From positions 1 through 64,000 of IMG/VR virus record IMGVR_UViG_3300025132_000021: a stretch of DNA of 64,000 bases; one strand, given 5' to 3'. How positions within the stretch are numbered: the stretch's first letter is position 1; every line of letters begins with the position of its first letter. Below the pieces are notes generated by a model. That model did not search any database and was not told the DNA's origin. It saw only the letters and a program-made list of their open reading frames with translations. Below, piece after piece: positions 15,772 through 55,235 of the stretch. The position numbers and the translations under genes are program-made. Origin of the DNA: a virus.

Positions 15772-15783
15772 TTTATATGGGTC
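15772..15783 (+). promoter_or_regulatory. promoter TTTATATGGGTC for TBP
   Basis: It lies 31 nt before the ATG at 15803. The gene itself begins right after a second box-like TTTAAGTATG, which could allow self-binding by TBP near its own start codon. Confidence 0.6.
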
Positions 15784-15802
15784 ATCGGACTTATGTTTAA
15801 GT

Positions 15803-17167: not shown

Positions 17168-17629
17168 ATGTTGGTAGCACTAACAGGCACAATGATTGGA
17201 TTTGGAGCCTTCGGATATTCTATTGTTAAACTTAAAGACCGTCAATGGCGTGAAGCCGCAATCGCTATGGTTGGCGGTGCTGCTGTGCTTTCCATTGTAG
17301 GTTGGAATCTTAATCGTTTGAAGGACGATGCAACGAAAGTTTTCGGTGCAGACTACATGAAGCGTAATGAAGTTGAAAAAGTTCTTGATGAATCTGCTGG
17401 CAAAATTGTCGGTGTAACTTTCATTAAGAAAGATGGTTCAGAGCGCACACTTGTTGGCAGGATTGGCAAGAGATACTCCCCAACGGGAACTGACCCGTTA
17501 GGTGGCAAAGCCGCCCGCCGAGGTCGTGGACTATTCACAATTTATGATATGCAAAAGCAAGCCTTCCGCATGGTAAATATGGATACAGTTATCAGCATTC
17601 GTGCTGGTGGAAAGACCTACCGTGCGTGA
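17168..17629 (+). CDS. N-terminally membrane-anchored protein
   Basis: 153 aa. Two hydrophobic segments (about residues 2-22 and 30-47) precede a basic beta-rich soluble domain (FIKKDGSERTLVGRIGKRYS ... FTIYDMQKQAFRMVNMDTVISI). Not recognised. It heads a short operon with the next membrane protein. Confidence 0.6.
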   Translation: MLVALTGTMIGFGAFGYSIVKLKDRQWREAAIAMVGGAAVLSIVGWNLNRLKDDATKVFGADYMKRNEVEKVLDESAGKIVGVTFIKKDGSERTLVGRIGKRYSPTGTDPLGGKAARRGRGLFTIYDMQKQAFRMVNMDTVISIRAGGKTYRA

Positions 17630-17633
17630 TAGC

Positions 17634-17837
17634 ATGAGTTTTTACACAAATCCAATAGTTTTCACGGCATTAGCGATTACTTCTTATGGATTTTATCGTT
17701 CAATTAAAATTGGGCTTGCTACTGCTATGGATAAATCAGTAAGTGATAGAGAGTATTGGTTATCTATGCTTCCCGGATATGCTTTAGTTGCCTTTGGTAT
17801 TGGAATCATGGCTTCAATGTATCCTTTTAAGAATTAA
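17634..17837 (+). CDS. small two-helix membrane protein
   Basis: 67 aa, with hydrophobic segments near residues 5-22 and 42-62. The ATG at 17634 lies 4 nt after the previous stop. The longer frame starting inside the upstream gene is disfavoured. Confidence 0.55.
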   Translation: MSFYTNPIVFTALAITSYGFYRSIKIGLATAMDKSVSDREYWLSMLPGYALVAFGIGIMASMYPFKN

Positions 17838-19248: not shown

Positions 19249-19253
19249 TTACT

Positions 19254-21746: not shown

Positions 21747-23291
21747 ATGGCAGGATTTATCGTCAGCAATTCGTTTGGCAGATTCAATGCTAAAAAGAAA
21801 GTTTTCAATGCTACAATCACAGACATACCCGGAGTCCCCACCACAGTTCCATTTAAGCAGATAGTTCAAGGATTACCTCAAGACACAAACGGATATGCAG
21901 GCAATAATGGTTGGGCTTACAAAAAGCAGTTGGGTAAAAATAGTGGTGAAAGCACAAATGGCAGTGGCCGATTAACACAAGCCCAAGCCGACAAGTATTT
22001 CCAGTGGTCTGGTGGTAGTCCTACTAATGAAAATACCATGAATCTTTACGCTGGTGATGCTTACCATTTTAGACCAGCCCCCGGAACAATTGCTAAGTTC
22101 CAGTTCAAATATGTCACCAACAAGGGCAGTTCAAATCAATACCCTTATGATTATGTAGTTAATATCAAAAAATCAGGATTAAGCATTCCGAGCGCAGCAA
22201 CTTCCGCATCATATCCTTCAATTACCAATTACACAAGGGTAGATACCACATCAAGTGCTTCAGGCTATGTTAAGTTCACAGTAGAGTTTGATGGAGATGA
22301 TTCCAGCAATTACTTTTCTATTGATATGGGAGACCCCCAAGTAGGCGGTATTGCTGCGTGCAAGTTTTACACTCCTGACGGATTCTTTACCAGAGACCAA
22401 TACCCTTCTGATAAAGACATTGACCGAGTAGAGATTCATCTTTGGAGTATCAAAAAGAAACCTGTTTCTGGTTGCACAGACCCACAAGCCGACAATCACA
22501 ATGTTAATGCAACGGTTAGCGATAACAGTTGTTCATACACGACCGCAACGATTAGCACATTTAGCACATCACCAACCACAATTACTCAAGGAGGAAGTTC
22601 TACAATTACTTGGACTCTATCTGATGGAAACTTTTCTGAAGTTAAACTTTTAGAAAATGGAACTAACATCATGCCTACCAATAAAAAGCAGGCTCAATCA
22701 TCATCACTTGTAGTTAGCCCTGCAACTGTTGGAAACAACACTTATCAATTACAAGTAGATTGGACTAAGCCAAATACTGAAACAAGAAATAGTGCGGTGC
22801 AAACAATAAATGTGAATGCACCAACTTCTTATATCCCATGCACTGACCCGAACAGAGACACCGATGGTAATGGAGAATGTGCAAGTTGTAAATCAGGATA
22901 TTATCTTGGTTCAGATGGTCTTTGCACCCAATGTTCTGACCCAAACCGAGAATATGATACTGACGGTCGCTGTGGTGATTGTGTTTCTGGATATGCTTTG
23001 GGAACAAACGGACTTTGCCAAAAGTCAGGATGTATGGATGAAGACGATGCCAATTATGACCCAGATGCAGTAATTGATGATTCATCTGCTTGCTATGGCG
23101 ACGATGATGACGATGACGGAACTGACGGAACTGGCGGAGATGGTGATGATGATGATGATGACGACACTGGAACGACCATCACCACACAAACAACTACAAC
23201 GACCACAACTGAAGAAGAATCTCCGAATCTTTTAGTTCCAATTCTACTTGGCGGTGCAATTCTCGGTGGAGTATTACTATTAAGGAAGTGA
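21747..23291 (+). CDS. Cys-rich surface protein with C-terminal membrane anchor
   Basis: 514 aa. No signal peptide is visible. The order is: a beta-rich N-terminal domain; a GCTDPQADNHN...DNSC motif near 249; an Ig-like domain (ITQGGSSTITWTLSDG); two EGF-like Cys units (CASCKSGYYLGSDGLC, CGDCVSGYALGTNGLC); another GCMDEDDANYDPDA motif; an Asp-rich then Thr-rich stalk; and a terminal helix LLVPILLGGAILGGVLLL ending RK. The stalk plus anchor reads like a cell or virion surface protein. Absence of a leader with extracellular-type domains is unusual and could mean tail-anchored insertion. Confidence 0.75.
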   Translation: MAGFIVSNSFGRFNAKKKVFNATITDIPGVPTTVPFKQIVQGLPQDTNGYAGNNGWAYKKQLGKNSGESTNGSGRLTQAQADKYFQWSGGSPTNENTMNLYAGDAYHFRPAPGTIAKFQFKYVTNKGSSNQYPYDYVVNIKKSGLSIPSAATSASYPSITNYTRVDTTSSASGYVKFTVEFDGDDSSNYFSIDMGDPQVGGIAACKFYTPDGFFTRDQYPSDKDIDRVEIHLWSIKKKPVSGCTDPQADNHNVNATVSDNSCSYTTATISTFSTSPTTITQGGSSTITWTLSDGNFSEVKLLENGTNIMPTNKKQAQSSSLVVSPATVGNNTYQLQVDWTKPNTETRNSAVQTINVNAPTSYIPCTDPNRDTDGNGECASCKSGYYLGSDGLCTQCSDPNREYDTDGRCGDCVSGYALGTNGLCQKSGCMDEDDANYDPDAVIDDSSACYGDDDDDDGTDGTGGDGDDDDDDDTGTTITTQTTTTTTTEEESPNLLVPILLGGAILGGVLLLRK

Positions 23292-23295
23292 AATT

Positions 23296-23538
23296 ATGGC
23301 AGTTATTAGCGAAGCACAAAATTACCAAGATTATATGATTCCTCACACATGGGCAACTGAAGAAGAAACCCAACCTCAAATCACACCTGAAGCACAAAAC
23401 ATTGATGGTTTAGTAGTTGAACCCACTAAGCCTACGGTCATGGAAATGATTACTAAGATTGCATTTTCACCCATTGGATTAACTGTTCTTGGATTAGTCG
23501 GACTTGGATTAGTCGTATCAGGCTTCAAGAAAGAGTAA
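23296..23538 (+). CDS. small tail-anchored-type protein
   Basis: 80 aa. A polar Glu/Gln/Thr-rich N-terminus is followed by one C-terminal membrane helix (GLTVLGLVGLGLVVSG) ending FKKE. It is cotranscribed with the preceding surface protein (4-nt gap). Confidence 0.65.
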   Translation: MAVISEAQNYQDYMIPHTWATEEETQPQITPEAQNIDGLVVEPTKPTVMEMITKIAFSPIGLTVLGLVGLGLVVSGFKKE

Positions 23539-25214: not shown

Positions 25215-26219
25215 ATGGCTGAACTCAAAGGCTGGACTTCAGTAGGAGACAAAGTTTTCGGAACTTATGGTTCTGGAACTACTTCTGATAAAACTAACTT
25301 TGAATCAAAAGTTTTCCTCAAGCGTGCAGGAAAGAATCAAGCATCTAAAAAAGTTTCAGGTTCAGAAGGTGGAACATCTATTGTTTGGCAAGATGCAAAA
25401 CATGATGATGAACTCCATTGGACAGCCAAGACCCTTTGTGATAATGACCCAACAGCAGATAGAGTAAATGTTGTTTTAAGTTATTACGACCCAACCTACC
25501 TCGGTCAATTATCGGACCAAATTATCAAAACTTTGAACGATAGTGAGTTAGAACAAGTAATGGTTGGAGATAGTTCAGTTATTGAAAAGAAATTAGAAAC
25601 TATGTTGGACATCAACCGTGCTTTGAAACAAGTTTATTCAACCACCGTAGTCACTGATAAAGATGGTATCGCAGAAGGCGTTATACCATTACCTGCCGAT
25701 TATCCTTATTCTGAATACACATTAACCATGCACTACGGTTATTCTGGACTCGCAGAAAGAACAGATTCCGATAAAGCATGGGATTTTTGGTTAAATGAAG
25801 TAGGTATTATGGTATTAGAAATAGTTTTAATCATTATTGCTACCGCCCTAACAGGAGGGGCTGCTTTAGCATTTGGAATAGCAGCCACAGTAGTAGGTGT
25901 GGCCGACCTTGCACTTATGGCAAGCCAATATACATCTAATGGATTTGGTGCGATTGATGAAAACAACCGTGGTTGTTTATTCCCAGCAACAGGTTGGAAT
26001 CATAGTTATGCCATAGTTCTAAACGAACCTGTTCCTGAAGAAGAGGGAGGTGGCAACGAAATTAGTAATGAAATCTTTGAGCAAATTAGTGTTCCTGAAG
26101 CCACTCAAGAAAAAGCAAAGCAAATTATGAGTGATTATTCCTTTGCTCAAATTGCTATCGTAGGCTCTGCTACTTTGGCAGCCATTATGCTACTTTTATT
26201 TGGAGGGCGTAAGAAATGA
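25215..26219 (+). CDS. membrane protein, putative structural
   Basis: 334 aa. An N-terminal beta-rich domain, a central hydrophobic region of about 35 residues (IMVLEIVLIIIATALTGGAA and onward), and a C-terminal helix (IAIVGSATLAAIMLLLFGG) ending RKK. It starts 2 nt after the preceding gene and overlaps the next by 4 nt. Not recognised. Its context suggests a complex with its neighbours. Confidence 0.65.
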   Translation: MAELKGWTSVGDKVFGTYGSGTTSDKTNFESKVFLKRAGKNQASKKVSGSEGGTSIVWQDAKHDDELHWTAKTLCDNDPTADRVNVVLSYYDPTYLGQLSDQIIKTLNDSELEQVMVGDSSVIEKKLETMLDINRALKQVYSTTVVTDKDGIAEGVIPLPADYPYSEYTLTMHYGYSGLAERTDSDKAWDFWLNEVGIMVLEIVLIIIATALTGGAALAFGIAATVVGVADLALMASQYTSNGFGAIDENNRGCLFPATGWNHSYAIVLNEPVPEEEGGGNEISNEIFEQISVPEATQEKAKQIMSDYSFAQIAIVGSATLAAIMLLLFGGRKK

Positions 26220-27205
26220 TGAATAATCCTTTTCAAATGCCTTTGCTTAATTCCAAGGCTCAAAAGTTTATTGCTGAAGAAACTTTACCGGGTTTCAATA
26301 ATAAAATTGAATTATTAGAAGATAAAACCAAAGAGCGAGACCCTAAGAAACTTTGTGGTTCTAAACACGCAGTTTGGGTCGGGATTGAGCCACCAGCCAA
26401 GCCTAACAAGATTATTCCATTTAAGAACAACATTGTGATAGCATTTTGGGCTAACGATACCTCTGGAGGCGGTATTCTTGACCCGGGTGCAGTTATTGGA
26501 GGCATTACAACTTTAGTCACTGACCCTGAAGAATACAAAGACACTATTGATGCAGGATTACAAGCAGTTTGGGAAAGAGATAATGACTCTTTCGGTGATT
26601 ACGCTGAAGCATGGGGCTATACTATTCTTTACAAAGGAATTGGTGAACCATTTAGCAATACATCAAAGGCTGTGAATGCAGGTTGGGATTATGTTTCAGA
26701 TTGCGACGAGCGTTGGTATTGTGCCGAAAGTTATGAAACAGACACAGATTTCCTCGGTTTTGATTATCACAACAAAGTGGCTAATGCACATACAATTTCT
26801 ATCAAGATTACCAATGAATACGAAGGTGTGCTACGCACAGTTCACGACACCACTTTAGCAGGAACAACAGAAGTTTATGGTTCAGCCCAAAACCCGATGC
26901 CAGCCCTTGCTTATTTCACAATTGATTCTCCCGGTGTTTGGAGAGTCAGAGTCAAATCTAAAGCATCAGGTTCTTGTGCAGACCCACGATTAGACATTAA
27001 CGAAAGATTTACTGTTCCCACTCCAACTGGCTGGGGACAAACCGACTCTCCTGCGGAGAGTCAGATTACACCCGCCGCACCTGTGGAAATTACCACTCAA
27101 ACCAGCACCGTAGAAGTCGCTGAAAAAACTGGCACGACTCCTTTAGTTTTATTAGGTGCGACAATCGGTGTAGGCGGATTGTTAGCCTATGCTTTGCTTA
27201 GGTAG
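26216..27205 (+). CDS. putative structural protein with C-terminal anchor
   Basis: 329 aa. No signal peptide. It has FIAEETLPGF near the N-terminus, a large beta-rich body with four paired cysteines, and two W/R-rich strands near the end (GVWRVRVKSKASGSC). A Thr-rich stalk is followed by a terminal helix (PLVLLGATIGVGGLLAYALL) ending R. ATGA overlap with the preceding gene. It has the same terminal-anchor plan as the 514-aa protein. Confidence 0.65.
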   Translation: MMNNPFQMPLLNSKAQKFIAEETLPGFNNKIELLEDKTKERDPKKLCGSKHAVWVGIEPPAKPNKIIPFKNNIVIAFWANDTSGGGILDPGAVIGGITTLVTDPEEYKDTIDAGLQAVWERDNDSFGDYAEAWGYTILYKGIGEPFSNTSKAVNAGWDYVSDCDERWYCAESYETDTDFLGFDYHNKVANAHTISIKITNEYEGVLRTVHDTTLAGTTEVYGSAQNPMPALAYFTIDSPGVWRVRVKSKASGSCADPRLDINERFTVPTPTGWGQTDSPAESQITPAAPVEITTQTSTVEVAEKTGTTPLVLLGATIGVGGLLAYALLR

Positions 27206-34262: not shown

Positions 34263-34292
34263 CTATTCCAATAAGCCTAAGCCTTGCCAATC

Positions 34293-34304
34293 TTTAAGTA
34301 TCAG
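34293..34304 (+). promoter_or_regulatory. promoter TTTAAGTATCAG
   Basis: It lies 30 nt before the ATG at 34323. Confidence 0.75.
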
Positions 34305-34322
34305 TTCTGCATTAGACTATTT

Positions 34323-35000
34323 ATGGTGCTTGAGTTTTATCCCATAGAGTTTGATGATGACTCGGTAGGATTCGTAGCAGTAGAGTCAGAGTTTGAACCT
34401 TGGTTAATTGCAGCCGTAGGTGTTGGTTTTGAAGATATGAGTTATTCTGTTCTTGAAGAAGACGATGATGGCTTAGTAGAATTGATTATTGACGGGGACG
34501 ATTTTGACAACCTTCAAGATTTGTATGCAGAATATCAAACCTATGGTTGGGCAGTTATTGATGACGATGATTATGCAGAATGGGCTGAAGCCTTTTCAGC
34601 CGAACAAATGAGTGATGAAGATTATCTCTTAATGATTATAGAGTTTGATGAGAAAAATCCACAACCTGCGAAACCTTATCATATAAAGTCAAGTCTTTAC
34701 GAAGATGGCACAGTCCCTTCAATGGCATTCTTTTTGGGTGGGAAAACGGTCAATCCAAAAGTAATGCTCAAAGCAATTAGAGAAGGCAGAGTTGCTCGCC
34801 TCAATCGTAATGCCGACACCAAAGGCTACTATCGTGGAATCAATCTTGACCGCTTTTCTGGTAATAAATCTAACCGCCGAAACTTTTCACAAACTCGTCG
34901 TAATCTTAAGAAAGATATGTTCGGTTCAGTATCCCTCGGCAGCATCCTCACAGGTGTTGCAGCCCTCGGAACAATTTTGTATCTGGTTAATAGGAAGTGA
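34323..35000 (+). CDS. acidic protein with C-terminal membrane anchor
   Basis: 225 aa. An acidic alpha/beta first half is followed by FSAEQMSDED, a basic region (KAIREGRVARLNRN...) and a terminal hydrophobic helix (SLGSILTGVAALGTILYLV) ending NRK. No signal peptide. Same tail-anchor plan as the 21.7-27.2 kb proteins. Unrecognised. Confidence 0.65.
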   Translation: MVLEFYPIEFDDDSVGFVAVESEFEPWLIAAVGVGFEDMSYSVLEEDDDGLVELIIDGDDFDNLQDLYAEYQTYGWAVIDDDDYAEWAEAFSAEQMSDEDYLLMIIEFDEKNPQPAKPYHIKSSLYEDGTVPSMAFFLGGKTVNPKVMLKAIREGRVARLNRNADTKGYYRGINLDRFSGNKSNRRNFSQTRRNLKKDMFGSVSLGSILTGVAALGTILYLVNRK

Positions 35001-35174: not shown

Positions 35175-35486
35175 ATGGACAAAGATTTAGAATCCTTTAC
35201 TAAGGATTTGATGTTGTTAATCAACGCTTTCATTACCGATACAGGAGAGATGAAAGAAGTCTTAGCCAGACTCACAGAACAAATGGATACTTTAGAAAAA
35301 GATGTTGGCTACATGAACAAAGTGGTTCGTGATGGCAACGGTCGTCCACCACTAATGACTCGGTTAGAAGTTTTAGAAGAAAAGATTAACACCCTCAAAG
35401 AAACCACTAATCGTTGGTGGCAAGTTTGGGTAGCCGCAGTTCCCGGTTTGTTAGCCTTGCTTACAACTGGTGCAGTGGTGATGTGA
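35175..35486 (+). CDS. coiled-coil protein with C-terminal membrane helix
   Basis: 103 aa. A long helix with heptads (about 10-75) leads to WWQVWVAAVPGLLALLTTGA at the end. This resembles a short tail-anchored or holin-like protein. A holin role is possible but not supported by neighbours. Confidence 0.6.
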   Translation: MDKDLESFTKDLMLLINAFITDTGEMKEVLARLTEQMDTLEKDVGYMNKVVRDGNGRPPLMTRLEVLEEKINTLKETTNRWWQVWVAAVPGLLALLTTGAVVM

Positions 35487-38652: not shown

Positions 38653-40365
38653 ATGAACAAAGAAAATAAACTAAAGAAGACATTTTTAACGATTTTAACA
38701 GCAATTATGCTTGCTATGAGTGCAGGTGTAGTTACTGGTGAAGGTTCCGACCCTCTTGACCCATCAGACGGTGGCGCAGATTGGGATGGCGACGGTTTGA
38801 CTAACAAAGAAGAACAAGACGCTGGAACTAATATGAACAACCCAGATTCAGACGGTGATGGACTCCCAGATGGTTGGGAAGTTGCTAACGGCCTAAATCC
38901 AACTAACGGTGGCGATGCTAACGGCGACCCAGATGGAGATGGTCTAACCAACTCTCAAGAATATGCACAGGGAACTAACCCAAACAATGCCGATACTGAC
39001 GGCGATGGCAAACCTGATAACACAGATGCCTTCCCTAACGACCCTAACGATGGAGAATACTCCGACTCCGATGGAGATGGAATCCCAGACGCATACGACC
39101 CAGATTATCAAGAGTCCCAAGCGGGTTCTGGTAATGGAGGCACAGAAGGCGGTGGCGAGTCTGAAGACAATGGACAAGGCGAAGGCCAAGGTCAGGGTCA
39201 AGGACAGGGACAAGGACAAGGACAGGGGCAAGGCCAAGGCCAAGGTCAGGGTCAAGGTCAGGGTCAGGGTCAAGGACAGGGCCAAGGTCAAGGACAAGGA
39301 CAAGGGCAGGGCCAAGGACAAGGGCAAGGCCAAGGTCAAGGTCAAGGACAGGGACAGGGCCAAGGCCAAGGTCAGGGTCAAGGACAAGGCCAACAACAAG
39401 GTCAAGGTCAAAGTCAAGGACAAGGACAACAAGGACAACAAGGCCAGCAAGGAAACCAAGGACAACAAGGACAGGCTGGACAACAAGGCCAACAATCTGG
39501 ACAACAAGGTAACCAAGGTCAGCAAGGCCAACAAGGGCAACAAGGTCAGCAACAAGATAACGGGCAAGGCCAGCAACAACAAGGAGGTCAGCAAGGCGGT
39601 CAGCAATCTGAACAACAAGCAGAAGAACAGAACGGCCAAAACCAAAATGGTGCTAACCAACAACAGCAAGGTCAAACCCAGAATGGTCAGCAAGGCCAGC
39701 AAGGTCAGCAAAATGACCAGCAACAAGGCCAACAGTTGGATAATCAAGACCAAAATGGAGATAACGACAATGATGGCGACGGTATTCCTGATGACTTAGA
39801 CAATGATGATGATAACGATGGAATCCCAGATACTATGGATGATTCACCTCAAGACCATGATAACGACGGCATTGATGATGCTGAAGATAATGATGATGAC
39901 GGAGATGGAATCAACGATAATGAAGAAGTCAATGATGGCAACGACAACACAGATATTTATGACCACGACAATGACGGTATAGAAGACCGTTTTGACTTTG
40001 ACATTGATAATGACGGAATTGACAACTGGAATGACCTGTATGAAAACGGGTCAGATGCCAGCCGAGACCACGACAATGATGGTATGGACGATGGTGTAGA
40101 CACAGACGACGATAACGACAACATTCTTGATGTTGATGAAATCGGCGGTGCTTGGTCTTCCTATCGCTACGACCATGATAACGACAACATTTGGGATGCA
40201 ACAGACCTTGATGATGATAACGATGGTCTATCAGACTGGTTTGAGAACAATGATGGCAACGATATGACAGGTCAATTTGACCATGACAACGATGGCGTTA
40301 GTGATTACTTAGACCTTGACGATGATGGCGACGGTATTCTGGACGAGTTTGAAAACGGCGTTTGA
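38653..40365 (+). CDS. secreted Ca-binding repeat protein with GQ-repeat linker
   Basis: 570 aa. The Sec signal peptide is residues 1-28 (KKTFLTILTAIMLAMSAGVV). Then come thrombospondin type 3-like DxDGDGLxDxxE repeats (about 30-155), a GQ dipeptide tract (about 174-255) continuing into Q/G-rich sequence to about 365, and a second long run of DxDNDGIxD repeats to the end. There is no membrane anchor. DxDxDG loops bind calcium, so the ends would be rigid and the middle flexible. Likely a secreted matrix, fibre or cell-surface protein. The C-terminus may be bound by another surface protein. Confidence 0.85.
   Translation: MNKENKLKKTFLTILTAIMLAMSAGVVTGEGSDPLDPSDGGADWDGDGLTNKEEQDAGTNMNNPDSDGDGLPDGWEVANGLNPTNGGDANGDPDGDGLTNSQEYAQGTNPNNADTDGDGKPDNTDAFPNDPNDGEYSDSDGDGIPDAYDPDYQESQAGSGNGGTEGGGESEDNGQGEGQGQGQGQGQGQGQGQGQGQGQGQGQGQGQGQGQGQGQGQGQGQGQGQGQGQGQGQGQGQGQGQGQGQGQQQGQGQSQGQGQQGQQGQQGNQGQQGQAGQQGQQSGQQGNQGQQGQQGQQGQQQDNGQGQQQQGGQQGGQQSEQQAEEQNGQNQNGANQQQQGQTQNGQQGQQGQQNDQQQGQQLDNQDQNGDNDNDGDGIPDDLDNDDDNDGIPDTMDDSPQDHDNDGIDDAEDNDDDGDGINDNEEVNDGNDNTDIYDHDNDGIEDRFDFDIDNDGIDNWNDLYENGSDASRDHDNDGMDDGVDTDDDNDNILDVDEIGGAWSSYRYDHDNDNIWDATDLDDDNDGLSDWFENNDGNDMTGQFDHDNDGVSDYLDLDDDGDGILDEFENGV
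39172..39405 (+). repeat. degenerate GGNCAR tandem repeat
   Basis: About 40 successive Gly-Gln codon pairs with drifting third positions. The protein repeat is perfect while the DNA is not, indicating selection for the peptide after expansion. Confidence 0.9.
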
Positions 40366-41270: not shown

Positions 41271-42203
41271 ATGGACGCAAGAACAATCGCAGGCGCAGGA
41301 CTACTCATTGGTGGTGGTCTTGTCGGCTACAAGGCTATGAAAGATTTGGCAGGACTTGGTTGCTATGGACCAGCCGCTTACCTAACACTCGGACTCACTG
41401 GAATTGGCGCAGGATTATTCCTGTTTGGCAAACTACGAACAGACGCAGTTAAGCAAAGAGTTGCTGATGTAAAAGAAGAAGTTTCCGCAGTAATGAACTC
41501 TGAATACTACCCTTGGCTACCTGAAGGTATGGATGCTGGCGATGTAGTAGTTCCTAACTCCTATGGAGACACTTCCTCTGCTGCTGGTATGCCTGATGGC
41601 TCTGGTCGTGGAGTTCCACAATGGTATGGAAGCGCAGAAGGCCGAAAATACGGCAAGCGTGACCGATACACAGACCGTTGGGGCAACGCTCGCTACTTTA
41701 CTCGTCGCAAGGACGGTTCAATCGTAACTTCAGTCAATATCGCTGGAAAGCGTGGTGCTGTTGCTAACGACCGCCGACAAGGTGCTAAGACTTACAAGCC
41801 TTCTGGCTACCGTCAGATGGGTGATGCAAAGCCAGTCGGACAACTTGAGAGAGCCATGAAGAATATGTTCGGTGCAGATACCGAAGCAGGACTTCCAGTT
41901 ATCCCAGATTCCTACGGAACAAACTCTGCTCTGGATTCAGGACAAGGAGTTCCAGTTTGGTATGGTTCCGCAGAATCCAAGTATGGCAAACGCCAACGCT
42001 TTGACCATATCAAAGGCAACAGCCGATATGTCGCTCGTGATACTAAGGGAAGATTTATCTCCAATGTATCAGTAGCAGGTAAGCGAGGTTCAATCGCACA
42101 GGACAAGCGTAAGATGGCAAAGTCCTACAAGCCTGCTGGCTACCGCCAGATGGGTGATGGAAAGCGTGTTCCACAATCGGCTCGTGCTTCCAAGAATGTG
42201 TGA
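41271..42203 (+). CDS. membrane protein with duplicated basic domain
   Basis: 310 aa. Two hydrophobic segments (about residues 5-22 and 31-52) precede two copies of a basic module of about 95 residues. Each reads SYG...G(R/Q)GVPxWYGSAE, then KYGKRxR, then (I/V)(S/N)VAGKRG, then YKPxGYRQMGD. A linker with FGADTEAGLP separates them. Pattern and charge suggest a membrane-bound DNA- or polyanion-binding structural protein. C-ending codons are more frequent than in neighbours, as in highly expressed genes. Confidence 0.65.
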   Translation: MDARTIAGAGLLIGGGLVGYKAMKDLAGLGCYGPAAYLTLGLTGIGAGLFLFGKLRTDAVKQRVADVKEEVSAVMNSEYYPWLPEGMDAGDVVVPNSYGDTSSAAGMPDGSGRGVPQWYGSAEGRKYGKRDRYTDRWGNARYFTRRKDGSIVTSVNIAGKRGAVANDRRQGAKTYKPSGYRQMGDAKPVGQLERAMKNMFGADTEAGLPVIPDSYGTNSALDSGQGVPVWYGSAESKYGKRQRFDHIKGNSRYVARDTKGRFISNVSVAGKRGSIAQDKRKMAKSYKPAGYRQMGDGKRVPQSARASKNV

Positions 42204-42581: not shown

Positions 42582-43082
42582 GTGTCAATTCGTCGGCAAG
42601 GCTGGGAATGGGCTGTGGCAGACCTTGGAAACTTACCTGCCAAGGTTAAACAACTTGAAGTTCGCCCACAATCAGTTTTTTATTCAGGAATTGGTGATGC
42701 TACACAGGTAAATCGTAATCGCACAGGTGATGATGAGTATATCGTTCTACAATATGTTGGTTCTACACCGGGTAATTGGGGCGGTTTATTTAACAAAGGT
42801 CGTGATTGGAAACCCGGTGGTTTCGTCAATATCCGTATCGGCACAACAGCCTATTATCAAACTTTAGATGGTAGAGATTCACAAGGACTAACTGGCACAG
42901 CCGCACCCTATCCTATCTCATCTTCTGCTTCACCAGTTTTGAAAAACTGGATTCCAATTCAAATCCCGCCCGGAACGGATTGGGACATTACTTATTTCTT
43001 AGGCAACGCTTTAGTTCCACTTACGGAGGAGTTTCCACAGTTGCCGATTTCAACATTTACAATTACTGAAGTTCCACCATGA
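42582..43082 (+). CDS. beta-rich putative structural protein
   Basis: 166 aa with a GTG start. Gly/Pro/aromatic-rich beta pattern (YIVLQYVGSTPGNWGGLF, FVNIRIGTTAYYQTLDG). No membrane segment. It lies between a basic protein and the 951-aa protein in one operon, which suggests a particle or fibre component. Confidence 0.55.
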   Translation: MSIRRQGWEWAVADLGNLPAKVKQLEVRPQSVFYSGIGDATQVNRNRTGDDEYIVLQYVGSTPGNWGGLFNKGRDWKPGGFVNIRIGTTAYYQTLDGRDSQGLTGTAAPYPISSSASPVLKNWIPIQIPPGTDWDITYFLGNALVPLTEEFPQLPISTFTITEVPP

Positions 43083-43092
43083 GGTTTTTATT

Positions 43093-45948
43093 ATGGGATT
43101 AGTCTACGATATTAACACCGTTGCTTTGCCATGGCAAAGTAATACCAAAAATTGGTTTGAGTCCTTTGCTAATTTTGATGGCACTGCTGAGTTCCAAGGC
43201 GCACTCACAGAATCCATGCAAGGTATAGAACAATTTGACCCCGGAGGTAATCTTGTGACTGATTGGATTATTCGTGGACAAACTTATGTGAATGATTATT
43301 ACATTTGGTATGGGTCTTACCGAGCCTATTTCATGGACTTATATGCTGCCAATACTGGAGGAATTGCATGGGATGGTTTCATTTGTGTTGCGAGAGCCTA
43401 CAATGCTGTAAAGGGAGGACGGTATGACCCAGATGCAGGAGTTCCATTTCCTCCTAATGCCCCATTTGCCGAAGGACCGTTTGAGGTTCCATTTCGCTCG
43501 GTTTATATGATTCCCATGAGGTTGCCTTATCAATTACCACCGGGCGTTGTGGGTGATGCGGTCAAGATTGCCGCCGATAGTGAACCCGGTGTTTATGGTG
43601 TAAATATCGCCACAGGATTAGGCTCATTATATGGGTCAGAAGTAGTAGGAACTTCTTTTGCTAACAAAGATTATGCAGTTATGGATTCACGCCGAACACC
43701 TAAAATTGGTATTGGCGTAGTAGGAACTCAAAGAACTTATACAGGTAATAGCACACCCACTGGCATTTCTTATGTAGGTTTTGGAAACATTTTTAACATT
43801 GATTATAACCCCGCAAGTTATGAACAAGGAAACCTTTTAGACCCACAGATGCAAGGTTCACCCATGGCTCTTATTTGGGCAGAAGCATGGGGTTGGAAAA
43901 AAGAAAGTTTTTACAATAATGGTGGAGTGGGTGTGCCAAATCTTACTCAATTTGTTCCGTTGGATGATGGAATTATCAATATGGAATCTAATACAACTCG
44001 TTGGGTTTTCCCCGGTGATGTTGCAGATGCCGACCAAGCCAATGCTTTACTATACAGTGGAGGAGATGGACACATCATTACTAAAGTTTATGATTTGAAA
44101 TGGTCTGCTGACACAGTTAATCTAAATAATCCCAAAGGAACTGGTATTGGACTACTGTGTGGACAAGTAGCCGAGTTCGCAGGAGGAGTTTTACAAAACT
44201 TTCAACCATTCTTTGCAGGTTGGAAATCGGTTTGGACGGGAGACTTGCCCTCCTATACTTATGCAAAATATGGTTCTACCAGTGGACATCCCGATGGAAG
44301 ACCTTGTAATATCAAAGTTGGTGTAGCCTCTCGTAGTGGGACTACTGCTAATTTCATCATGCCTACTGATGTTACTATTGACCTTACGAGTGGAGCCTTT
44401 GCTAACACCATAACTCAAGCATTACCAGATAATACAGTAGAGACTTATTTGAATACATTTTTAGTTGGTATAAATTATGCAGTTATAGGTGGTGTTAAAC
44501 AATGTGTTGTTTATTCAGCCAATTCACCAGATATTATTTATGGTAATGGATTTGAGGCTGCAACCAGAAGTTATTGTTTGGCTCCTTTGGCGTATGCAGG
44601 AGGTTCGTTTGTGACTGAAACAGGTTTAGAGATGCCTTCAACCGCAGGAGGAACACCAATTTGGACAGGTTCGGTTTTTCAAAATCAAACATTAGATTTA
44701 GAATACGAAGAACGCTCAACAGGTAAATCAGATTTCCAGAATGCGGCAGCGTTGATAGCACTTGGAGGTGCGCCAACTTATGTCATAGATGATGATTTAG
44801 TAGAATCCAATAATAAGGATTTCACCGTCCCTCCTGAAGAGAAAGCAGCCCTCGCTTTAGCAGGAGTTGGTCTTGGTAATGCAGGAAATTGTTATATTCC
44901 CGGAGTGAATCAAGAAACTCCAAGCCCAACTAATCCTTATGCAAACTTAGCCAATGGTTTATTAGCCTACCAACCGGGTGCAGGACCTTATGCTTTAATT
45001 TATGATTTTGGCAGTATTAGTGCCAACCCAGTAGCATTTAGTAATCCATTACAAATTACCAGCACAGGTTCAGGAACTCAACAAGGAGGAGAAATGAACA
45101 AAGAGTTTATCACAGGACCAAACTCTACCACTCGCTATGCTACTTGTGGTTCTTGGGATAATGACAGAGACCAATGGATTTTTACATTCTGCGACCCTGT
45201 AAATGGTGCAGGAATCATGTCAGTCAATTCGGCTTTTGGATTAGCCAGCAAAGTTCAACAAACTTTCTTAGACCAGACTGTAAATCTACCCGGACCTCCA
45301 AAAAATAGTTTCACCCCACAATGTTCTATTTATACCAGTCGTCAAATGACTACTCAATTAGATGGACTCGTGATTTCAGGGGCAGAAAATAACCTACAAG
45401 GCACAGATGCAGACGGACAAGTTTCAGGAGGTCGTTTGGCATTAAAGGGTGCGCCCTTAGCAGGAGTTCCTGCTGCTCAAGCCTTTACGGTATTTGGAAT
45501 CGGAGTAATCACAGGAACAACAGGCAGAACTGCTCGTGTTTGGGTAGATTATCTGTTATTTGATGGTCCTGAGTCCTTAATTGCAGTGGAACTTGAAAAG
45601 TTAGGACTCCGTGTAACCGTAGAAAATGTAGAATGGTATAAAGCCAAGATTCTTAAAGCAGGAAAATTGGGTCTTACTTTAGAAGAAATTGAAGACTGGG
45701 TTCGTATGCAACAAGATGAATACCGAGCCACTTTGAAACAAAAAGAGCGTGCAGGTCGTATGCGTAGCAAACGCCGACAAGTTGCTGTCTGGAGAGAAGG
45801 ATTAGAAGATACCTTAGAAGGAGACTTTATGGACAAAGGAGGATTTGAAACTCTCAAGGACTTAGATACTGCTGCTCAAGAGTATGTCCCTGCCCCTTCA
45901 GAAACTACCAAAAATACCAAAAACACGAAATTAGATTCCGATAAATGA
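43093..45948 (+). CDS. 951-aa putative structural/fibre protein
   Basis: No domain recognised. About 800 residues of Gly/Asn/Tyr-rich beta structure with no signal peptide and no membrane helix, then a charged helical tail (about 830-951) with EKLGLRVTVENVEWYKAKIL and an Arg/Lys-rich coil (LKQKERAGRMRSKRRQ). Such composition is typical of virion fibres and large appendage proteins. Without a leader it would need release by lysis or a particle route. GAGGT precedes the ATG. Confidence 0.6.
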   Translation: MGLVYDINTVALPWQSNTKNWFESFANFDGTAEFQGALTESMQGIEQFDPGGNLVTDWIIRGQTYVNDYYIWYGSYRAYFMDLYAANTGGIAWDGFICVARAYNAVKGGRYDPDAGVPFPPNAPFAEGPFEVPFRSVYMIPMRLPYQLPPGVVGDAVKIAADSEPGVYGVNIATGLGSLYGSEVVGTSFANKDYAVMDSRRTPKIGIGVVGTQRTYTGNSTPTGISYVGFGNIFNIDYNPASYEQGNLLDPQMQGSPMALIWAEAWGWKKESFYNNGGVGVPNLTQFVPLDDGIINMESNTTRWVFPGDVADADQANALLYSGGDGHIITKVYDLKWSADTVNLNNPKGTGIGLLCGQVAEFAGGVLQNFQPFFAGWKSVWTGDLPSYTYAKYGSTSGHPDGRPCNIKVGVASRSGTTANFIMPTDVTIDLTSGAFANTITQALPDNTVETYLNTFLVGINYAVIGGVKQCVVYSANSPDIIYGNGFEAATRSYCLAPLAYAGGSFVTETGLEMPSTAGGTPIWTGSVFQNQTLDLEYEERSTGKSDFQNAAALIALGGAPTYVIDDDLVESNNKDFTVPPEEKAALALAGVGLGNAGNCYIPGVNQETPSPTNPYANLANGLLAYQPGAGPYALIYDFGSISANPVAFSNPLQITSTGSGTQQGGEMNKEFITGPNSTTRYATCGSWDNDRDQWIFTFCDPVNGAGIMSVNSAFGLASKVQQTFLDQTVNLPGPPKNSFTPQCSIYTSRQMTTQLDGLVISGAENNLQGTDADGQVSGGRLALKGAPLAGVPAAQAFTVFGIGVITGTTGRTARVWVDYLLFDGPESLIAVELEKLGLRVTVENVEWYKAKILKAGKLGLTLEEIEDWVRMQQDEYRATLKQKERAGRMRSKRRQVAVWREGLEDTLEGDFMDKGGFETLKDLDTAAQEYVPAPSETTKNTKNTKLDSDK

Positions 45949-46472: not shown

Positions 46473-47618
46473 ATGGCTTATCTGCTCTTGTTCACTGGCA
46501 AAGGCGGAGTTGGCAAATCAACGATTTCGGCATCTACGGCAGTTTATCATGCTTCACAAGGATTAAGAACTCTTTTGGTTTCCTCTGACCCCGCACATAG
46601 CACCGATGACACTCTTGGCATCAAAGTAGGTTCTGAAGACACACCTATTTCTGAAAACTTATGGGCGAAAAATCTTAATGCCGAATCTCTTGCCGCCGAT
46701 TTTTTCGGTCAATTACAAGGTTATATGGAATCATCGTTTGGAACACTCCCCGGTTTTGATTCATCTATGTTAGCCGACTTAAGTAATTTTCCCGGTATGG
46801 ACGAAGCCTTTGCTATGGAAGAAATGTCTCGTTTGTGCCATTCTTCAGACTATGATTTAATCGTTTATGACACCGCACCTACTGGACACACACTCAAAGC
46901 CTTGTCTGCACCTGATTATCTTAACACATTTTTACTCAAAGTTTTGCGTATGAAAGCCAAGATTGAGAATCTCAAAGGATTCTTTATCAAGAAAGGAAAT
47001 ACCTCTAAACTTGTAAATCTTTTAGAAGATTTCATCGCTCGTATTGAGAAACTTAAAGTTTTGTTGCGAGACCCGAACTTTGTTAGCATGAACTTGGTTT
47101 CTATTCCTACTGAAGCAGGATTCGCAGAATGCAACCGCACAGTTCGTTATTTAGAAACCATGAAGATTCCTGTTCAGCATCTTGTAGTTAATCAAATTAT
47201 CCCGCCATTTACTCCTGAAGTTTGGGCAGATGCAGAGTCCAATCCTGCTGTGGCTCTTTTGAAAACCGAGTTTGATATTCAACAACCTTACTTACAAAGA
47301 TTTAAGGAACTAACCTCCACCTCAAACTTGCGTTTGGTTGGAATTACTCGCTTGCCTTTTGAGCCTCGCTCACACCGCCTCGTGGATGTTGCTCACACAC
47401 TTTGGGGAGAGCGAGGACTTCAATTCCAAATCGCACCCTCATTGGAATTGAACGAAGATGATAAGAAGTTGCGAGTTCATGTTCCTCAAATTGCTGAAGC
47501 GACATGGGCTAAAGATAATCTAAGTTATCGTTTTGGAAATCATGTTTATCTATTGCCCCTCACTGGTAAAGTTAAGCGTCGTAAGAAAGGCGATAGCGTA
47601 GAACTCACATGGGAGTGA
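46473..47618 (+). CDS. get3: Get3/ArsA-family ATPase
   Basis: 381 aa. Deviant Walker A FTGKGGVGKSTIS (residues 7-19), switch I VSSDPAHSTDDTLG (about 37-50), and switch II YDTAPTGHTLKAL (about 131-143), a string characteristic of Get3 rather than MinD. Adenine-site LVVNQIIPP comes later. The helical client-binding subdomain lies between, and the C-terminal extension is beta-rich and basic. Get3 captures C-terminal membrane helices and delivers tail-anchored proteins. The ArsA alternative (arsenite pump) is less likely, as there is no ArsB and no Cys triad. It is followed by a small membrane-protein gene. Confidence 0.88.
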   Translation: MAYLLLFTGKGGVGKSTISASTAVYHASQGLRTLLVSSDPAHSTDDTLGIKVGSEDTPISENLWAKNLNAESLAADFFGQLQGYMESSFGTLPGFDSSMLADLSNFPGMDEAFAMEEMSRLCHSSDYDLIVYDTAPTGHTLKALSAPDYLNTFLLKVLRMKAKIENLKGFFIKKGNTSKLVNLLEDFIARIEKLKVLLRDPNFVSMNLVSIPTEAGFAECNRTVRYLETMKIPVQHLVVNQIIPPFTPEVWADAESNPAVALLKTEFDIQQPYLQRFKELTSTSNLRLVGITRLPFEPRSHRLVDVAHTLWGERGLQFQIAPSLELNEDDKKLRVHVPQIAEATWAKDNLSYRFGNHVYLLPLTGKVKRRKKGDSVELTWE

Positions 47619-47622
47619 TAAC

Positions 47623-47799
47623 ATGGATTGGGAATGGTTCTGGATTGTGGCTTTGACTATGGTAGTAGTCATGCACGGTTTTTTAGATATTTTCTTTGTG
47701 CGATGGGTTTTATGGCGCAACAAATTGCTCACAGAATTGGCCGTTAAATCTATTAAAAAAGAATCAGAAACTTTAAGTAGTCGTGATGAGTCAGAATAA
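47623..47799 (+). CDS. 58-aa membrane protein
   Basis: Trp-rich hydrophobic helix (residues 3-30) then a charged tail. It starts 4 nt after the Get3-like gene, so it is cotranscribed and may be a membrane partner or client. The next promoter (47772) is embedded in its 3' end. Confidence 0.6.
   Translation: MDWEWFWIVALTMVVVMHGFLDIFFVRWVLWRNKLLTELAVKSIKKESETLSSRDESE
47772..47783 (+). promoter_or_regulatory. promoter TTTAAGTAGTCG
   Basis: It lies 30 nt before the ATG at 47802, inside the upstream coding region. Confidence 0.7.
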
Positions 47800-47801
47800 T
47801 C

Positions 47802-48722
47802 ATGCAGCCTCAAGTGATTGGCATTTTAGCAGCCGTCGTAACCGCAGGTATTGGATACCATGTCCTTACCAAAGACAAAGAAGAAGAAACTACTACGGTA
47901 GTTGCTGGCGGAGTGCCAACTCAAACAGATGATTCCACATCTTGTAGCGATGATTTAGGTTGTGCGGCTGATGAACCTTATTGTGTAGATGGAAAATGTT
48001 CTGATACATTCCCAATCGCCACTCATTTTACCAAAAAATCTGGTTCTTTGTATCCAAAGATTGGTCAGTCTAACCTTTATCGTAACTTAAGTGATAAATC
48101 TAATGAACCCAGAGGGCAATACAAAACTTTGTCTGAAGCAGCAAAGGCTTGTAATGATGACCCAGATTGTGTCGGTTTCACCTATTGGCCTGAAAGATAT
48201 ACTTTAGACAATCCTAAAGATGCTGATGAGAGTTGTAGTTCCGATTCGGATTGTTCCACAGGAAAGTGTTGGGAAGGTAAATGTCGTTCAGCACAATATG
48301 GATTGAGTTATTTCTGGAGTAATACATCAGCACCACAGATTCCGGGAGACTATGATGGAGACACATGGAAATCCGCTAAAGGCGGTTTGACTCTTTCTCA
48401 AGGAGTAGGACCTTCTAATGAATACCTTGATACTCGCCGTCCTCGTAATGTAGCAGCAAATCATGTAGATGGAGATTTAACCAAATCTTGGAAATACGAA
48501 CAACACATGAAGCAAGTAGGAATTACCTATCTCAAGAAAGGTATGGAAGATTTCAAGTATTCAGACAGTTTTGAGGATGATGGCACAGCCAAGACCCAAA
48601 CCAGTTCGGCGGAATCTGATAACTCTATGCACATGACAGATACAGGAAATCCTTTCACCCACCCAGCCAGCAACCCAACAGGTTCAGGCTTTGTGATTTC
48701 TGACAAGTCTACAAAAGTTTAA
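47802..48722 (+). CDS. N-terminally anchored Cys-rich extracellular protein
   Basis: 306 aa. An uncleaved signal-anchor (about residues 5-23) is followed by Cys-rich segments of the form CxxDxxC...CxxGKC (near 48-65 and 148-165) and a PAN/apple-like piece (EAAKACNDDPDCVGFTYWP near 112). The rest is polar. Likely exposed on the cell or particle surface for adhesion. Confidence 0.65.
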   Translation: MQPQVIGILAAVVTAGIGYHVLTKDKEEETTTVVAGGVPTQTDDSTSCSDDLGCAADEPYCVDGKCSDTFPIATHFTKKSGSLYPKIGQSNLYRNLSDKSNEPRGQYKTLSEAAKACNDDPDCVGFTYWPERYTLDNPKDADESCSSDSDCSTGKCWEGKCRSAQYGLSYFWSNTSAPQIPGDYDGDTWKSAKGGLTLSQGVGPSNEYLDTRRPRNVAANHVDGDLTKSWKYEQHMKQVGITYLKKGMEDFKYSDSFEDDGTAKTQTSSAESDNSMHMTDTGNPFTHPASNPTGSGFVISDKSTKV

Positions 48723-50272: not shown

Positions 50273-51016
50273 ATGACATTCTTTGTGCGTCGTTATCAAA
50301 AGGGCATCAAGAACTCAGGCACACAAGACATCTTAACATCGGATGATGAAATCTCCTTAACTGATTTTGTCTCAATGGCACATAAAACAGGCCCGGGAAA
50401 GTATCTGTTAGGAGAGCGTGGTCGGGGTATCAGAGGTTTCCGTAAAATCACAGATTGTATCGTTGAACCCACACAAGTATTTGCTGCCGAGACTGTTCAA
50501 GTTCGTAAAACTCTTAAACTTCAAGACATGAATGATTCAGAACTTATGGAACTTTTAGGTAGCATGAGCCGAACAGAACTTAACTCACCAGAAGAATTGA
50601 CTACTTTTCAAGAAGATTTGAATAACATTCATCGTGAATTGGCTCGTCGTAGTGGTGGCTCAACATCTGTTTCCAAATCAGCAGAAGGTTCAACCCCCAG
50701 CCCCGCTATCGCTTCGGCTGGATTTGCCGTCGGCAATAAATCCGCCGCCGCTATGGGAGTCGTAGCAGGATTAGTTATCGGTGCTTTGGGAACATCATGG
50801 TATTACAAGAGTAAGATTGATGACCTACAAGCCACAATTGACCGTTTTGACACTAAATTATCTGAAGCCGAATCTTACATGAAGAAAGCAGAAGAAAGAG
50901 AAACTAAGCGTGCTGCTGCTGAACACGCAAAGGCTCGTTATGACGCATCTATGCAAAATGGAGTTGGAGGATTATTCCTCTCGGATTACAACCGCCGTAA
51001 TGGTCCGCATTATTGA
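50273..51016 (+). CDS. membrane protein with coiled coil
   Basis: 247 aa. A soluble first half containing VFAAETVQVRKTL, then one membrane helix (about 156-175, AAMGVVAGLVIGALGTSWYY), then a coiled coil (KIDDLQATIDRFDTKLSEAESYM) and a Gly/Arg-rich end. Unrecognised. GAGGTGATTAA at its end serves the next gene. Confidence 0.6.
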   Translation: MTFFVRRYQKGIKNSGTQDILTSDDEISLTDFVSMAHKTGPGKYLLGERGRGIRGFRKITDCIVEPTQVFAAETVQVRKTLKLQDMNDSELMELLGSMSRTELNSPEELTTFQEDLNNIHRELARRSGGSTSVSKSAEGSTPSPAIASAGFAVGNKSAAAMGVVAGLVIGALGTSWYYKSKIDDLQATIDRFDTKLSEAESYMKKAEERETKRAAAEHAKARYDASMQNGVGGLFLSDYNRRNGPHY

Positions 51017-53133: not shown

Positions 53134-55230
53134 ATGGTTCGTGTTAGCGACACAGCAGTAGATTACATCTTGGCATATTTCTGGCTACAAGGTGGCAAAG
53201 CAGGCAGGATTCGTAAAATTGGTCCAGATATGGCTGATTACTTGATTTCTAAAGGACACACATTTTCCCCTCGTGCAGAAAAGAAACTACGCACAGTTCC
53301 TTCTGCTTCTTTTTCTACTTCAGTATCTACTCCATGGACCAGCAACGCTGGTTGGATTGCTGCGACTTTCGGAGAATCCGCTTACAACATTGACGCATAC
53401 TATACTCGTAACCTACCCACAGGCCGTAGTATTGAATTAGGCACAGACCCTATGGGAAGCCCCGGTGGTGGAAAGGGTCGTGCTTGGAAAGCACAATCCT
53501 TTAATCAAACTGGTTGGGATGTTATCAACATTGAATCTATTGTAAATACTAATAAACCAGACCCTCGGTGGATTGCACTTTTGAACAATGTAGCCGTTTC
53601 TGGTGGTGCAAGTTTTACTGCTGATTTCCCAGTAACTAATCCTCGCTACGAAATTGGAAGTGGACTCATGCGCTATGCAGGAACACCACCAGCAATTTCT
53701 GGCGCACCGACTCCAACCACAGGTGCAACACCTCCTCCTCCACCAACACCTGCTGTTGAACCAGTAGTAGAACCAGAACCAGTAGTAGAAACAGTTGATG
53801 TAAGTTTTGATGATTTCAAAGACAATCTTTCTCTTGATGATTTGTCTGTCTTTGTTGTCAATGGGGCAAGCACTCCAACTATTAAGCCTTCAGACCGAAA
53901 GATTTCTTCTAAAGCCTTTGTTGCCAACGCAGGAAAGTTTTCAGTAGAGTCTGGACAGATTTCTATTACTATGAGAACACCAGATGCAGCCAAATTATCC
54001 AATGATTTAGAAGTGGCTTGGATTACTGGTGAACAAGACCCGTCAAAACTTGTTGATATGGAAGGAGATATGGTCACTATTACGGACGAAGAAGGTGAAG
54101 AATATGAAGTTCCAGCACCACCAAAGGTAAAGTTTATTGTTGATTGCGATGAAAAGAAAGTTTTCATTAGTGTTAATGGAGAAATGATTCAAGCCATCAA
54201 AGATGAGTCTGAATATGCTTTTGCTAAGTGTGAAATAACCGTAGAAGAACCCGCTAAAGGCGGTAAGATTACTTCATTATTCCTTGATGGAAGCCCTATT
54301 GAGTTCGGTAAAAAGACAGGGGCTATTTATGATTATGGATTCCCTATTCGTGGAGTCATGGGACTTCCTGAAAATTGTTATGCTGATGCTTATGATGCAG
54401 GAGAAGTTACCGCAGGAAAAGACCCAACAACTCAAATGTTCGCAGCCCGTGGAAAGTTTTATGCACTGGGCGGTCGTTTAATTCAATTTGGAACTCCTCA
54501 ATCTTACACTTATGATATGAGCCAAATGGACGAAAAGGTTCTTCAACCATTAGCACTTAACTTTGATACAGAACTGGATTTAGATAAGCAAGGAATCTTC
54601 TTTACCTTGTTATACCAGAACGCACTTACTGATGGCTCAAATCTTTTCCCCGGTTTTGACATCAACTCTACCGTAGATGCTAACATGGAAAATCTTTTAT
54701 TCCCTAATGATGTTCGTAATCTTCGTCCTAAGACAGAAGATAACAAGGTCATGCTACAAAAAGCAGGTGCTATACGCCGAGCAGGAGAAGGTATTGAAAA
54801 GATTGAGATTGATAGCAGCAATCTTCAAAGCACAGGTGAATTAGAAATCGGAGGTAAAACTTACACAACTGAAGTTTATTCTCAAGTTCAAGTAACTTTT
54901 GATGGAGGAGATACTATGTTGATTCCAGATGGAGATGACCGTTTCCGTGCTATTGACAATTCTGACTCCGAAATTATGGGAACAATTAGTGTAGATGAAA
55001 GCACAGAACGCCCACAAATACAGATTGTTTCAGGAGATTTAGATGATATTTATGAATCATTAGAAGCCTCTCGTCGTTCCAACCGTTTGTCCAAGAGATT
55101 TAATCGTGAAAGCAAAGGAGAAATTGTTAGCCAAACAGGTATGGTAAAGCAAGGAGATTCCTACTACATTATTATGGGTGTTGGTTCACAAACAGTAGTT
55201 GTTGAATTAGATATGGAACAAAAGGTGTGA
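53134..55230 (+). CDS. large hypothetical protein with proline-rich linker
   Basis: 698 aa. It begins with a helical segment of about 60 residues and a beta-rich domain. A Pro/Thr/Glu linker (about 195-225, PTTGATPPPPPTPAVEPVV) separates it from a long beta-rich body with repeated VDCDEKKVFISVNGE- and SLFLDGSPIEFG-like strands. No membrane helix. It directly precedes and is cotranscribed with the MoxR-type ATPase, so it may be a substrate or partner. Confidence 0.6.
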   Translation: MVRVSDTAVDYILAYFWLQGGKAGRIRKIGPDMADYLISKGHTFSPRAEKKLRTVPSASFSTSVSTPWTSNAGWIAATFGESAYNIDAYYTRNLPTGRSIELGTDPMGSPGGGKGRAWKAQSFNQTGWDVINIESIVNTNKPDPRWIALLNNVAVSGGASFTADFPVTNPRYEIGSGLMRYAGTPPAISGAPTPTTGATPPPPPTPAVEPVVEPEPVVETVDVSFDDFKDNLSLDDLSVFVVNGASTPTIKPSDRKISSKAFVANAGKFSVESGQISITMRTPDAAKLSNDLEVAWITGEQDPSKLVDMEGDMVTITDEEGEEYEVPAPPKVKFIVDCDEKKVFISVNGEMIQAIKDESEYAFAKCEITVEEPAKGGKITSLFLDGSPIEFGKKTGAIYDYGFPIRGVMGLPENCYADAYDAGEVTAGKDPTTQMFAARGKFYALGGRLIQFGTPQSYTYDMSQMDEKVLQPLALNFDTELDLDKQGIFFTLLYQNALTDGSNLFPGFDINSTVDANMENLLFPNDVRNLRPKTEDNKVMLQKAGAIRRAGEGIEKIEIDSSNLQSTGELEIGGKTYTTEVYSQVQVTFDGGDTMLIPDGDDRFRAIDNSDSEIMGTISVDESTERPQIQIVSGDLDDIYESLEASRRSNRLSKRFNRESKGEIVSQTGMVKQGDSYYIIMGVGSQTVVVELDMEQKV

Positions 55231-55235
55231 TTAGA

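Follow-up and report, generated by a model that had tools for sequence, protein, structure and literature searches.

Get3 is the cellular carrier for proteins that are held in a membrane by their last few residues. To our knowledge, the clients of archaeal Get3 are largely unknown. Archaeal Get3/TRC40 proteins, represented by those of M. jannaschii (3ug7), M. thermautotrophicus (3zq6), and T. kodakarensis (TkGet3), are single-domain proteins with a P-loop, switch I, switch II, and a helical client region; TkGet3 binds tail-anchored proteins though it has no CXXC motif (PMC11170914). Get3d, described as AtGet3d and NosGet3d, combines a Get3 core without CXXC with a C-terminal alpha-crystallin domain; it binds tail-anchored proteins, and the alpha-crystallin domain is not needed for this binding (PMC10248533).

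Among viruses, the closest described systems are SH1 and HHIV-2 (sphaerolipovirus, Helvetiavirae), which have genomes of ~31 kb, 0–1 C-anchored proteins by the rule used below, and no annotated Get3. Where the membrane of a virion lies beneath the capsid, its side toward the capsid corresponds to the cytosol, and hence anchored proteins need no signal peptide. Virion proteins with a C-terminal transmembrane (TM) segment have been reported in the SH1/HHIV-2 group, and in HCIV-1/HHIV-2 the C-terminal TM helices of VP10 and VP13 lie beneath the capsid (PMC6414509). No report of a virus-encoded Get3 was found in a literature search, and no Get3 from an archaeal virus was present in INPHARED. Here, we describe a Get3-type ATPase in a virus group that differs from SH1/HHIV-2 in its genome size of 123–166 kb and its genes for PolD, TBP, and TFB.

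Genome content and host

The window, i.e., the whole stretch of DNA analysed, comprises bases 1–64000 of a 160,342-base IMG/VR virus record (this virus is termed G000). Two archaeal information-processing genes were identified in the window:

15740-16381 of the window, TBP
19245-20588 of the window, DP1-like small subunit of PolD, with a DNA_pol_E_B match

PCNA, an XPF-like nuclease, and a class II ribonucleotide reductase are also encoded on the record, as are PolD DP2, TFB, and UvdE beyond the window. From these archaeal information-processing genes, we concluded that the element is an archaeal virus. In a search confined to Thermoplasmatota, the best matches of TBP and DP2 were 44–48% identical, and TBP was matched less well by rhodopsin-bearing (Poseidoniales-like) genomes. 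With TBP, TFB, and the DP1-like and DP2 subunits of PolD, the virus has an archaeal information-processing set of a completeness that is unusual for a virus; the loci of this set are the two listed above, L004:4624-8190 (minus strand), and L005:18124-19107 (minus strand). Three similar tandem ORFs at 148617-151278 (minus strand) of the record resemble C5-type DNA methyltransferases by eye from the sequence.

Identification of a Get3-type ATPase

The initial annotation had proposed a Get3 homologue at 46473-47618, and this was borne out at exactly these coordinates. The gene and its elements are as follows:

46473..47618, plus strand, Get3/ArsA-family ATPase, 381 aa, without internal stop
46497..46520, plus strand, P-loop GKGGVGKS (aa 9-16), both lysines present
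46587..46604, plus strand, switch I DPAHST (aa 39-44), inside SSDPAHST
46869..46895, plus strand, switch II DTAPTGHTL (aa 133-141), invariant in the four viral proteins
46932..47012, plus strand, helical region (aa 154-180, FLLKxLRMKAKI..KGF..K) aligned with the client-binding (TRC40-insert) region of Get3
47442..47612, plus strand, C-terminal alpha-crystallin-like beta-sandwich (aa 324-380), six strands in the AF2 model

The protein matched the ArsA/Get3 family profiles Pfam PF02374 (E 3.5e-61) and NCBIfam TIGR00345 GET3_arsA_TRC40 (202 bits, cut-off 135). The deviant Walker A motif GKGGVGK(S/T), switch I DPAHS, and switch II DTAPTGHT were all intact, and the P-loop up to K15 was invariant in all 35 rows of a broad ArsA/Get3 alignment and in the four viruses described below. 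The zinc-binding CXXC motif was found in none of the Get3 sequences of the four viruses, as in TkGet3. Judged by its motifs, the viral ATPase is a complete and catalytically intact protein of the Get3 type. Membership of an arsenite or cofactor family, which had been named as the finding that would overturn this assignment, was not supported: scores were far below all the equivalog cut-offs of ArsA, NosAFP, and Bag, and these readings were rejected, whereas the tree and the architecture fit Get3. A ParA reading was also rejected on cut-offs, architecture, and tree.

The AF2 model of the viral ATPase had a pLDDT of 84 and a pTM of 0.79. Foldseek against the PDB gave MjGet3 and MtGet3 as the top matches, and NosGet3d was aligned over 399 columns. 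The client-binding region has no counterpart in the half of bacterial ArsA (9nbl) that was aligned and is longer in MtGet3 and MjGet3 than in the virus; its helix (aa 154-180) is among the most conserved parts across the viral proteins. A Pfam scan detected no domain in the C-terminal part, and the alpha-crystallin-type identification therefore rests on the model and on alignment of the beta-sandwich with the alpha-crystallin domains of cellular homologues, including Thermoplasmatota Get3s.

Thus, the viral protein shares with archaeal Get3/TRC40 the single domain, P-loop, switches, helical client region, best fold match, and side of the tree, but it is virus-encoded and has an extra C-terminal beta domain, a shortened client-region loop, and a long stem branch. 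The Thermoplasmatota Get3s (e.g., in G017 and in rhodopsin-bearing genomes like G022) have the same domain architecture and SSDPAHST sequence, but they are cellular proteins, and the beta domain of the virus has diverged strongly from theirs. The overall design of Get3d is also similar; however, the viral match to it was only 39–44 bits, compared with 146–150 for archaeal Get3, and the viral active site is complete.

Among the viral proteins, dN was 0.22–0.43 in the catalytic part versus 0.73–1.14 in the C-terminal domain, which is the fastest-evolving part (approximately three times faster than the catalytic part). For the two closest viruses, dN and dS of the catalytic part were ~0.22 and ~1.8, respectively. 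By these estimates, the catalytic part is under purifying selection.

Phylogeny of the viral Get3

Two trees were taken without AtGet3d and NosGet3d, and in both the viral Get3 proteins formed one clade (100/100) on a long stem branch. In the second tree, a 100/100 branch separated viral and archaeal Get3 from the bacterial alpha-crystallin-bearing family, on whose side some archaeal members of that family were also placed; in the first tree, the ArsA half lay across a weak branch from the viral Get3. The nearest cellular rows by tree path were Thermoplasmatota Get3s with the alpha-crystallin-type domain. Among 123 cellular matches, SSDPAHST was present only in seven Thermoplasmatota Get3s, in addition to the four viral proteins, and it was present in all 29 further Thermoplasmatota loci listed. 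A tree forced to unite all SSDPAHST rows was not rejected (AU p 0.52), and a joint clade is compatible with the data but not proven.

The best cellular match, G017 (Thermoplasmatota), gave a full-length profile alignment with 31% identity, and none scored higher in 390 Thermoplasmatota genomes. A recent host copy was ruled out, as no cellular homologue exceeded ~35% identity among the genome-contig matches. These sequence relationships are explained most economically by capture from a Thermoplasmatota-like archaeon; such a capture would be old, because identities are about 30%.

Gene neighborhood in related viruses

IMG/VR searches detected the Get3 gene in three related virus contigs of 166, 150, and 123 kb, which together with G000 make up the four-virus set (the relatives include G001, G002, and G004). 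An additional 84-kb contig with a Get3 gene appears to derive from the virus of the 150-kb contig. Upstream of Get3 in G000, G001, and G002 are genes for a 951-aa protein and a 140–150-aa protein; downstream, three soluble proteins and one single-TM protein are encoded in all four viruses. The following neighbors were recognized in G000:

43093..45948, plus strand, presumed structural protein, 951 aa, upstream neighbor of the Get3 cluster, partly related to the capsid candidates
47623..47799, plus strand, N-anchored protein, 58 aa, directly downstream of Get3
47802..48722, plus strand, N-anchored, Cys-containing protein, 306 aa, in the slot of C-anchored proteins in G002
50273..51016, plus strand, single-TM protein with a charged helical region past the TM, kept in all four viruses

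By this gene order, Get3 sits among virion genes in four viruses. The product of 50273..51016 had no informative Pfam match; speculatively, it is a candidate docking protein for Get3. No Get1/EMC3-type receptor was recognized by Pfam among ten viral membrane proteins.

Get3 had been described as lying next to genes for C-anchored proteins. This holds only loosely in G000, where the nearest C-anchored genes, 35175 and 64730 (the latter beyond the window), are 11 kb upstream and 17 kb downstream, respectively, whereas in G002 three C-anchored genes closely follow Get3 (L010 9670-12314). The slot after Get3 is thus occupied by N-anchored or C-anchored proteins depending on the virus. Each detected relative has both Get3 and C-anchored proteins. 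No relative without Get3 was found among the virus records matched by Get3, packaging-ATPase, and broad ArsA/Get3 profiles; these profiles recovered only the same virus records and distant ArsA-like matches.

Other proteins of this region were also inspected. A 1325-aa protein at window 55227-59204, beside presumed structural genes, has an AAA lid match (PF17863) and resembles a MoxR-type ATPase. A 570-aa protein at window 38653-40365, kept in relatives, has a hydrophobic leader at its N-terminus and carries Asp-rich repeats (DNDGIPD type) as well as a long tract of GQ repeats. The motif [FY][GSA]A[ED] (FGAE, FGAD) occurs 21–32 times per virus, compared with 5–7 in shuffled proteins, mostly in presumed structural or membrane proteins (e.g., window 17168-17629, 41271-42203, and 50273-51016), and is possibly a maturation-protease site. 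The product of window 59238-60575, which had no Pfam match, contains an HEIGH (HExxH-type) motif; this candidate metalloprotease conceivably acts on the FGA[ED] sites.

C-anchored proteins

About a dozen C-anchored proteins are encoded by this virus, with TM segments called by hydropathy alone and ORFs called mechanically in the four viruses only. Those in the window and one three-TM protein are listed below:

21747..23291, plus strand, C-anchored, 514 aa, with Cys-rich repeats and a Thr-rich linker; TM 494-512, 2-residue tail; C-anchored relatives in G001 and G004
23296..23538, plus strand, C-anchored, 80 aa; TM 55-73; C-anchored orthologue in G001
25215..26219, plus strand, three-TM protein with a C-terminal helix; segments 196-214, 218-236, and 313-331; same in the G001 and G002 orthologues
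26216..27205, plus strand, C-anchored, 329 aa; TM 310-328, 1-residue tail; C-anchored orthologues in G001 and G002
34284..35000, plus strand, C-anchored, 225 aa from ATG 34323 or 238 aa from TTG 34284; TM 204-222 of 225
35175..35486, plus strand, C-anchored, 103 aa, with a hydrophilic, helical-looking body and no tail; TM called at 84-102; C-anchored orthologues in G001 and G002
17601..17837, plus strand, short ORF, 78 aa, with a C-terminal TM; weak candidate, no orthologue found in relatives

Six proteins had initially been named as tail-anchored. Five of them (21747, 23296, 26216, 34323, and 35175) have one hydrophobic segment each, at the C-terminus and followed by 0–7 residues, but 25215 has three helices and falls outside the definition of a tail-anchored protein. 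The accompanying claim that signal peptides are lacking was upheld for most C-anchored proteins, which have no N-terminal hydrophobic h-region, and no Tat-like motif was found in any; however, short N-terminal hydrophobic stretches are present in 35175 and 34284. Where a C-anchored family of G000 has relatives in the other viruses, these in most cases retain the anchor at the C-terminus, and two larger paralogous families (74163 and 90734) are a mix of anchored and unanchored members.

The short tails are slightly basic (mean 1.45 K+R and 0.4 D+E), which by the positive-inside rule suggests a C-in orientation for some of the proteins. Overall, the flanking charges do not fix topology. Several C-anchored proteins are Cys-rich and surface-exposed in appearance, and such bodies suggest extracytoplasmic domains. 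Proteins of this kind would fit tail-anchoring only if the virion membrane is inside the capsid.

Using the same ORF caller (ORFs >=75 aa) and TM rule across the compared genomes, single C-anchors were counted in 53 of 721 proteins (7.4%) in the four viruses, compared with 1/221 in the tailed archaeal virus HGTV-1 (p 6e-6) and 3/213 in the Thermoplasmatota genome G022 (p 3e-4), the p-values treating related viruses as independent. The abundance of C-anchored proteins suspected from the window alone is hence beyond chance. Single C-anchors are also found in internal-membrane viruses, namely in 3 of the 15 ORFs of PM2 and 2 of the 27 of STIV, and Get3 is not annotated in these short genomes; hence, a virus with tail anchors need not encode Get3. 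P23-77 also has C-anchored proteins and no annotated Get3.

Packaging ATPase and capsid candidates

Two genes bear on the architecture of the virion:

64730-65914 of the record, beyond the window, packaging-ATPase homologue, with a C-terminal TM in all four viruses
42582..43082, plus strand, candidate single-jelly-roll capsid protein, with paralogues in all four viruses

SH1 was the only INPHARED match of the packaging ATPase (E 6e-3), which also matched PHROG 2666 (E 5e-13). Because its ATPase domain must face DNA, i.e., the cytosol, this protein would have tail-anchored topology by function, and it is the clearest predicted client of Get3. A packaging-ATPase-like protein likewise ending near a C-terminal TM is encoded on a Thermoplasmatota contig (G020, C103:18590-19822). 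This contig was considered as a provirus and rejected, as it looks cellular across the 40 kb read.

Five capsid-candidate paralogues of 166–256 aa are encoded in G000 (42582-43082, 81460, 82094, 98320, and 99024). A modelled paralogue (pLDDT 71) gave weak matches to SPV1 (prob 0.98) and HHIV-2 (prob 0.92), with a best E of 4e-3. From this model, the five paralogues may be the single-jelly-roll capsid proteins of a group of membrane-containing archaeal viruses of 123–166 kb. The anchored proteins and the packaging ATPase suggest that the virion probably has an internal membrane, which they support but do not prove.

Discussion

We propose, with about even confidence, that an archaeal, probably membrane-containing virus captured Get3 as its own carrier for C-anchored virion proteins. 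In the scheme that we infer, which extends to dimerization, client binding, delivery, insertion, virion architecture, and the topology of most anchored proteins, a large archaeal dsDNA virus, probably with a membrane beneath a jelly-roll capsid, would have acquired an archaeal Get3 that bears an alpha-crystallin-type domain at its C-terminus. A dimer of the viral ATPase would shield the C-terminal helix of each newly made virion protein, and the complex would go to the host cytoplasmic membrane, the site of capsid assembly, where the client would be released upon ATP hydrolysis with use of a host insertase. The N-terminal domains would remain cytosolic, on the side of the internal membrane that later faces the capsid, and no signal peptide would be needed. 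The absent CXXC and the extra domain do not disprove such a carrier, since TkGet3 and Get3d bind tail anchors. Counting against it are the C-anchored proteins of PM2 and STIV, in which no Get3 is annotated, the N-anchored neighbors of Get3 in G000, the Cys-rich bodies, the basic tails, the weak capsid-fold match, the lack of a recognized receptor, and the lack of a Get3-free relative for contrast among the records found.

Several of these points bear on an alternative that we consider unlikely but the strongest of its kind: the C-anchored proteins insert via host routes (Sec, an Oxa1/EMC-type insertase, or spontaneously), and the viral Get3 has another role, e.g., for one or two clients or in a host process, its co-occurrence with C-anchors reflecting a large, membrane-containing virus with many genes. 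The C-anchored proteins of PM2, STIV, and P23-77, which have no annotated Get3, are consistent with this, as are the N-anchored genes adjacent to Get3 in G000 and the variable slot among the viruses. However, all four viruses keep Get3 among virion genes and have far more C-anchored proteins than the tailed virus, and the client-region helix is among the best-conserved parts of the protein.

It is improbable that the viral ATPase is instead a general, ATP-regulated holdase for virion proteins, in which the alpha-crystallin-type domain is a client arm and tail anchors are one client class. The alignment of the beta-sandwich with alpha-crystallin domains fits this role, its rapid divergence could mirror varied clients, and a general chaperone role has been raised for Get3d (PMC10248533); yet that study found the domain dispensable for tail-anchor binding, and in the viral proteins it is the catalytic part and client-region helices, not the beta domain, that are conserved. 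Still more doubtful is a viral copy that takes over or jams the host tail-anchored pathway: related Get3s in Thermoplasmatota genomes are a plausible source for it, but four viruses preserve all the catalytic motifs and have the gene in the neighborhood of virion genes. That the protein is the ATPase of a pump for arsenite or another anion, or a partition ATPase of the ParA type, is scarcely credible despite the shared superfamily and a weak PHROG 164 match (E 2e-10), as it is single-domain rather than a fusion of two ATPase halves as in ArsA, reaches 98 bits against the ArsA equivalog cut-off of 650, has no ArsB among its neighbor genes in the viruses, retains the helical region missing from ArsA, and groups with archaeal Get3.

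If Get3 is indeed the carrier for C-anchored virion proteins, this would account for the way in which many proteins without signal peptides reach the membrane of a membrane-containing virion. The virus family gives a short and concrete list of candidate Get3 clients on the same genome, of which the packaging ATPase is the clearest test. We suggest tentatively, as the fuller form of this proposal, that these viruses are a lineage with a dedicated Get pathway, in which the virus-encoded Get3 assembles a virion membrane made up mostly of tail-anchored proteins, the packaging ATPase among them; if so, they would provide the first set of natural clients for a Get3 of the archaeal type.
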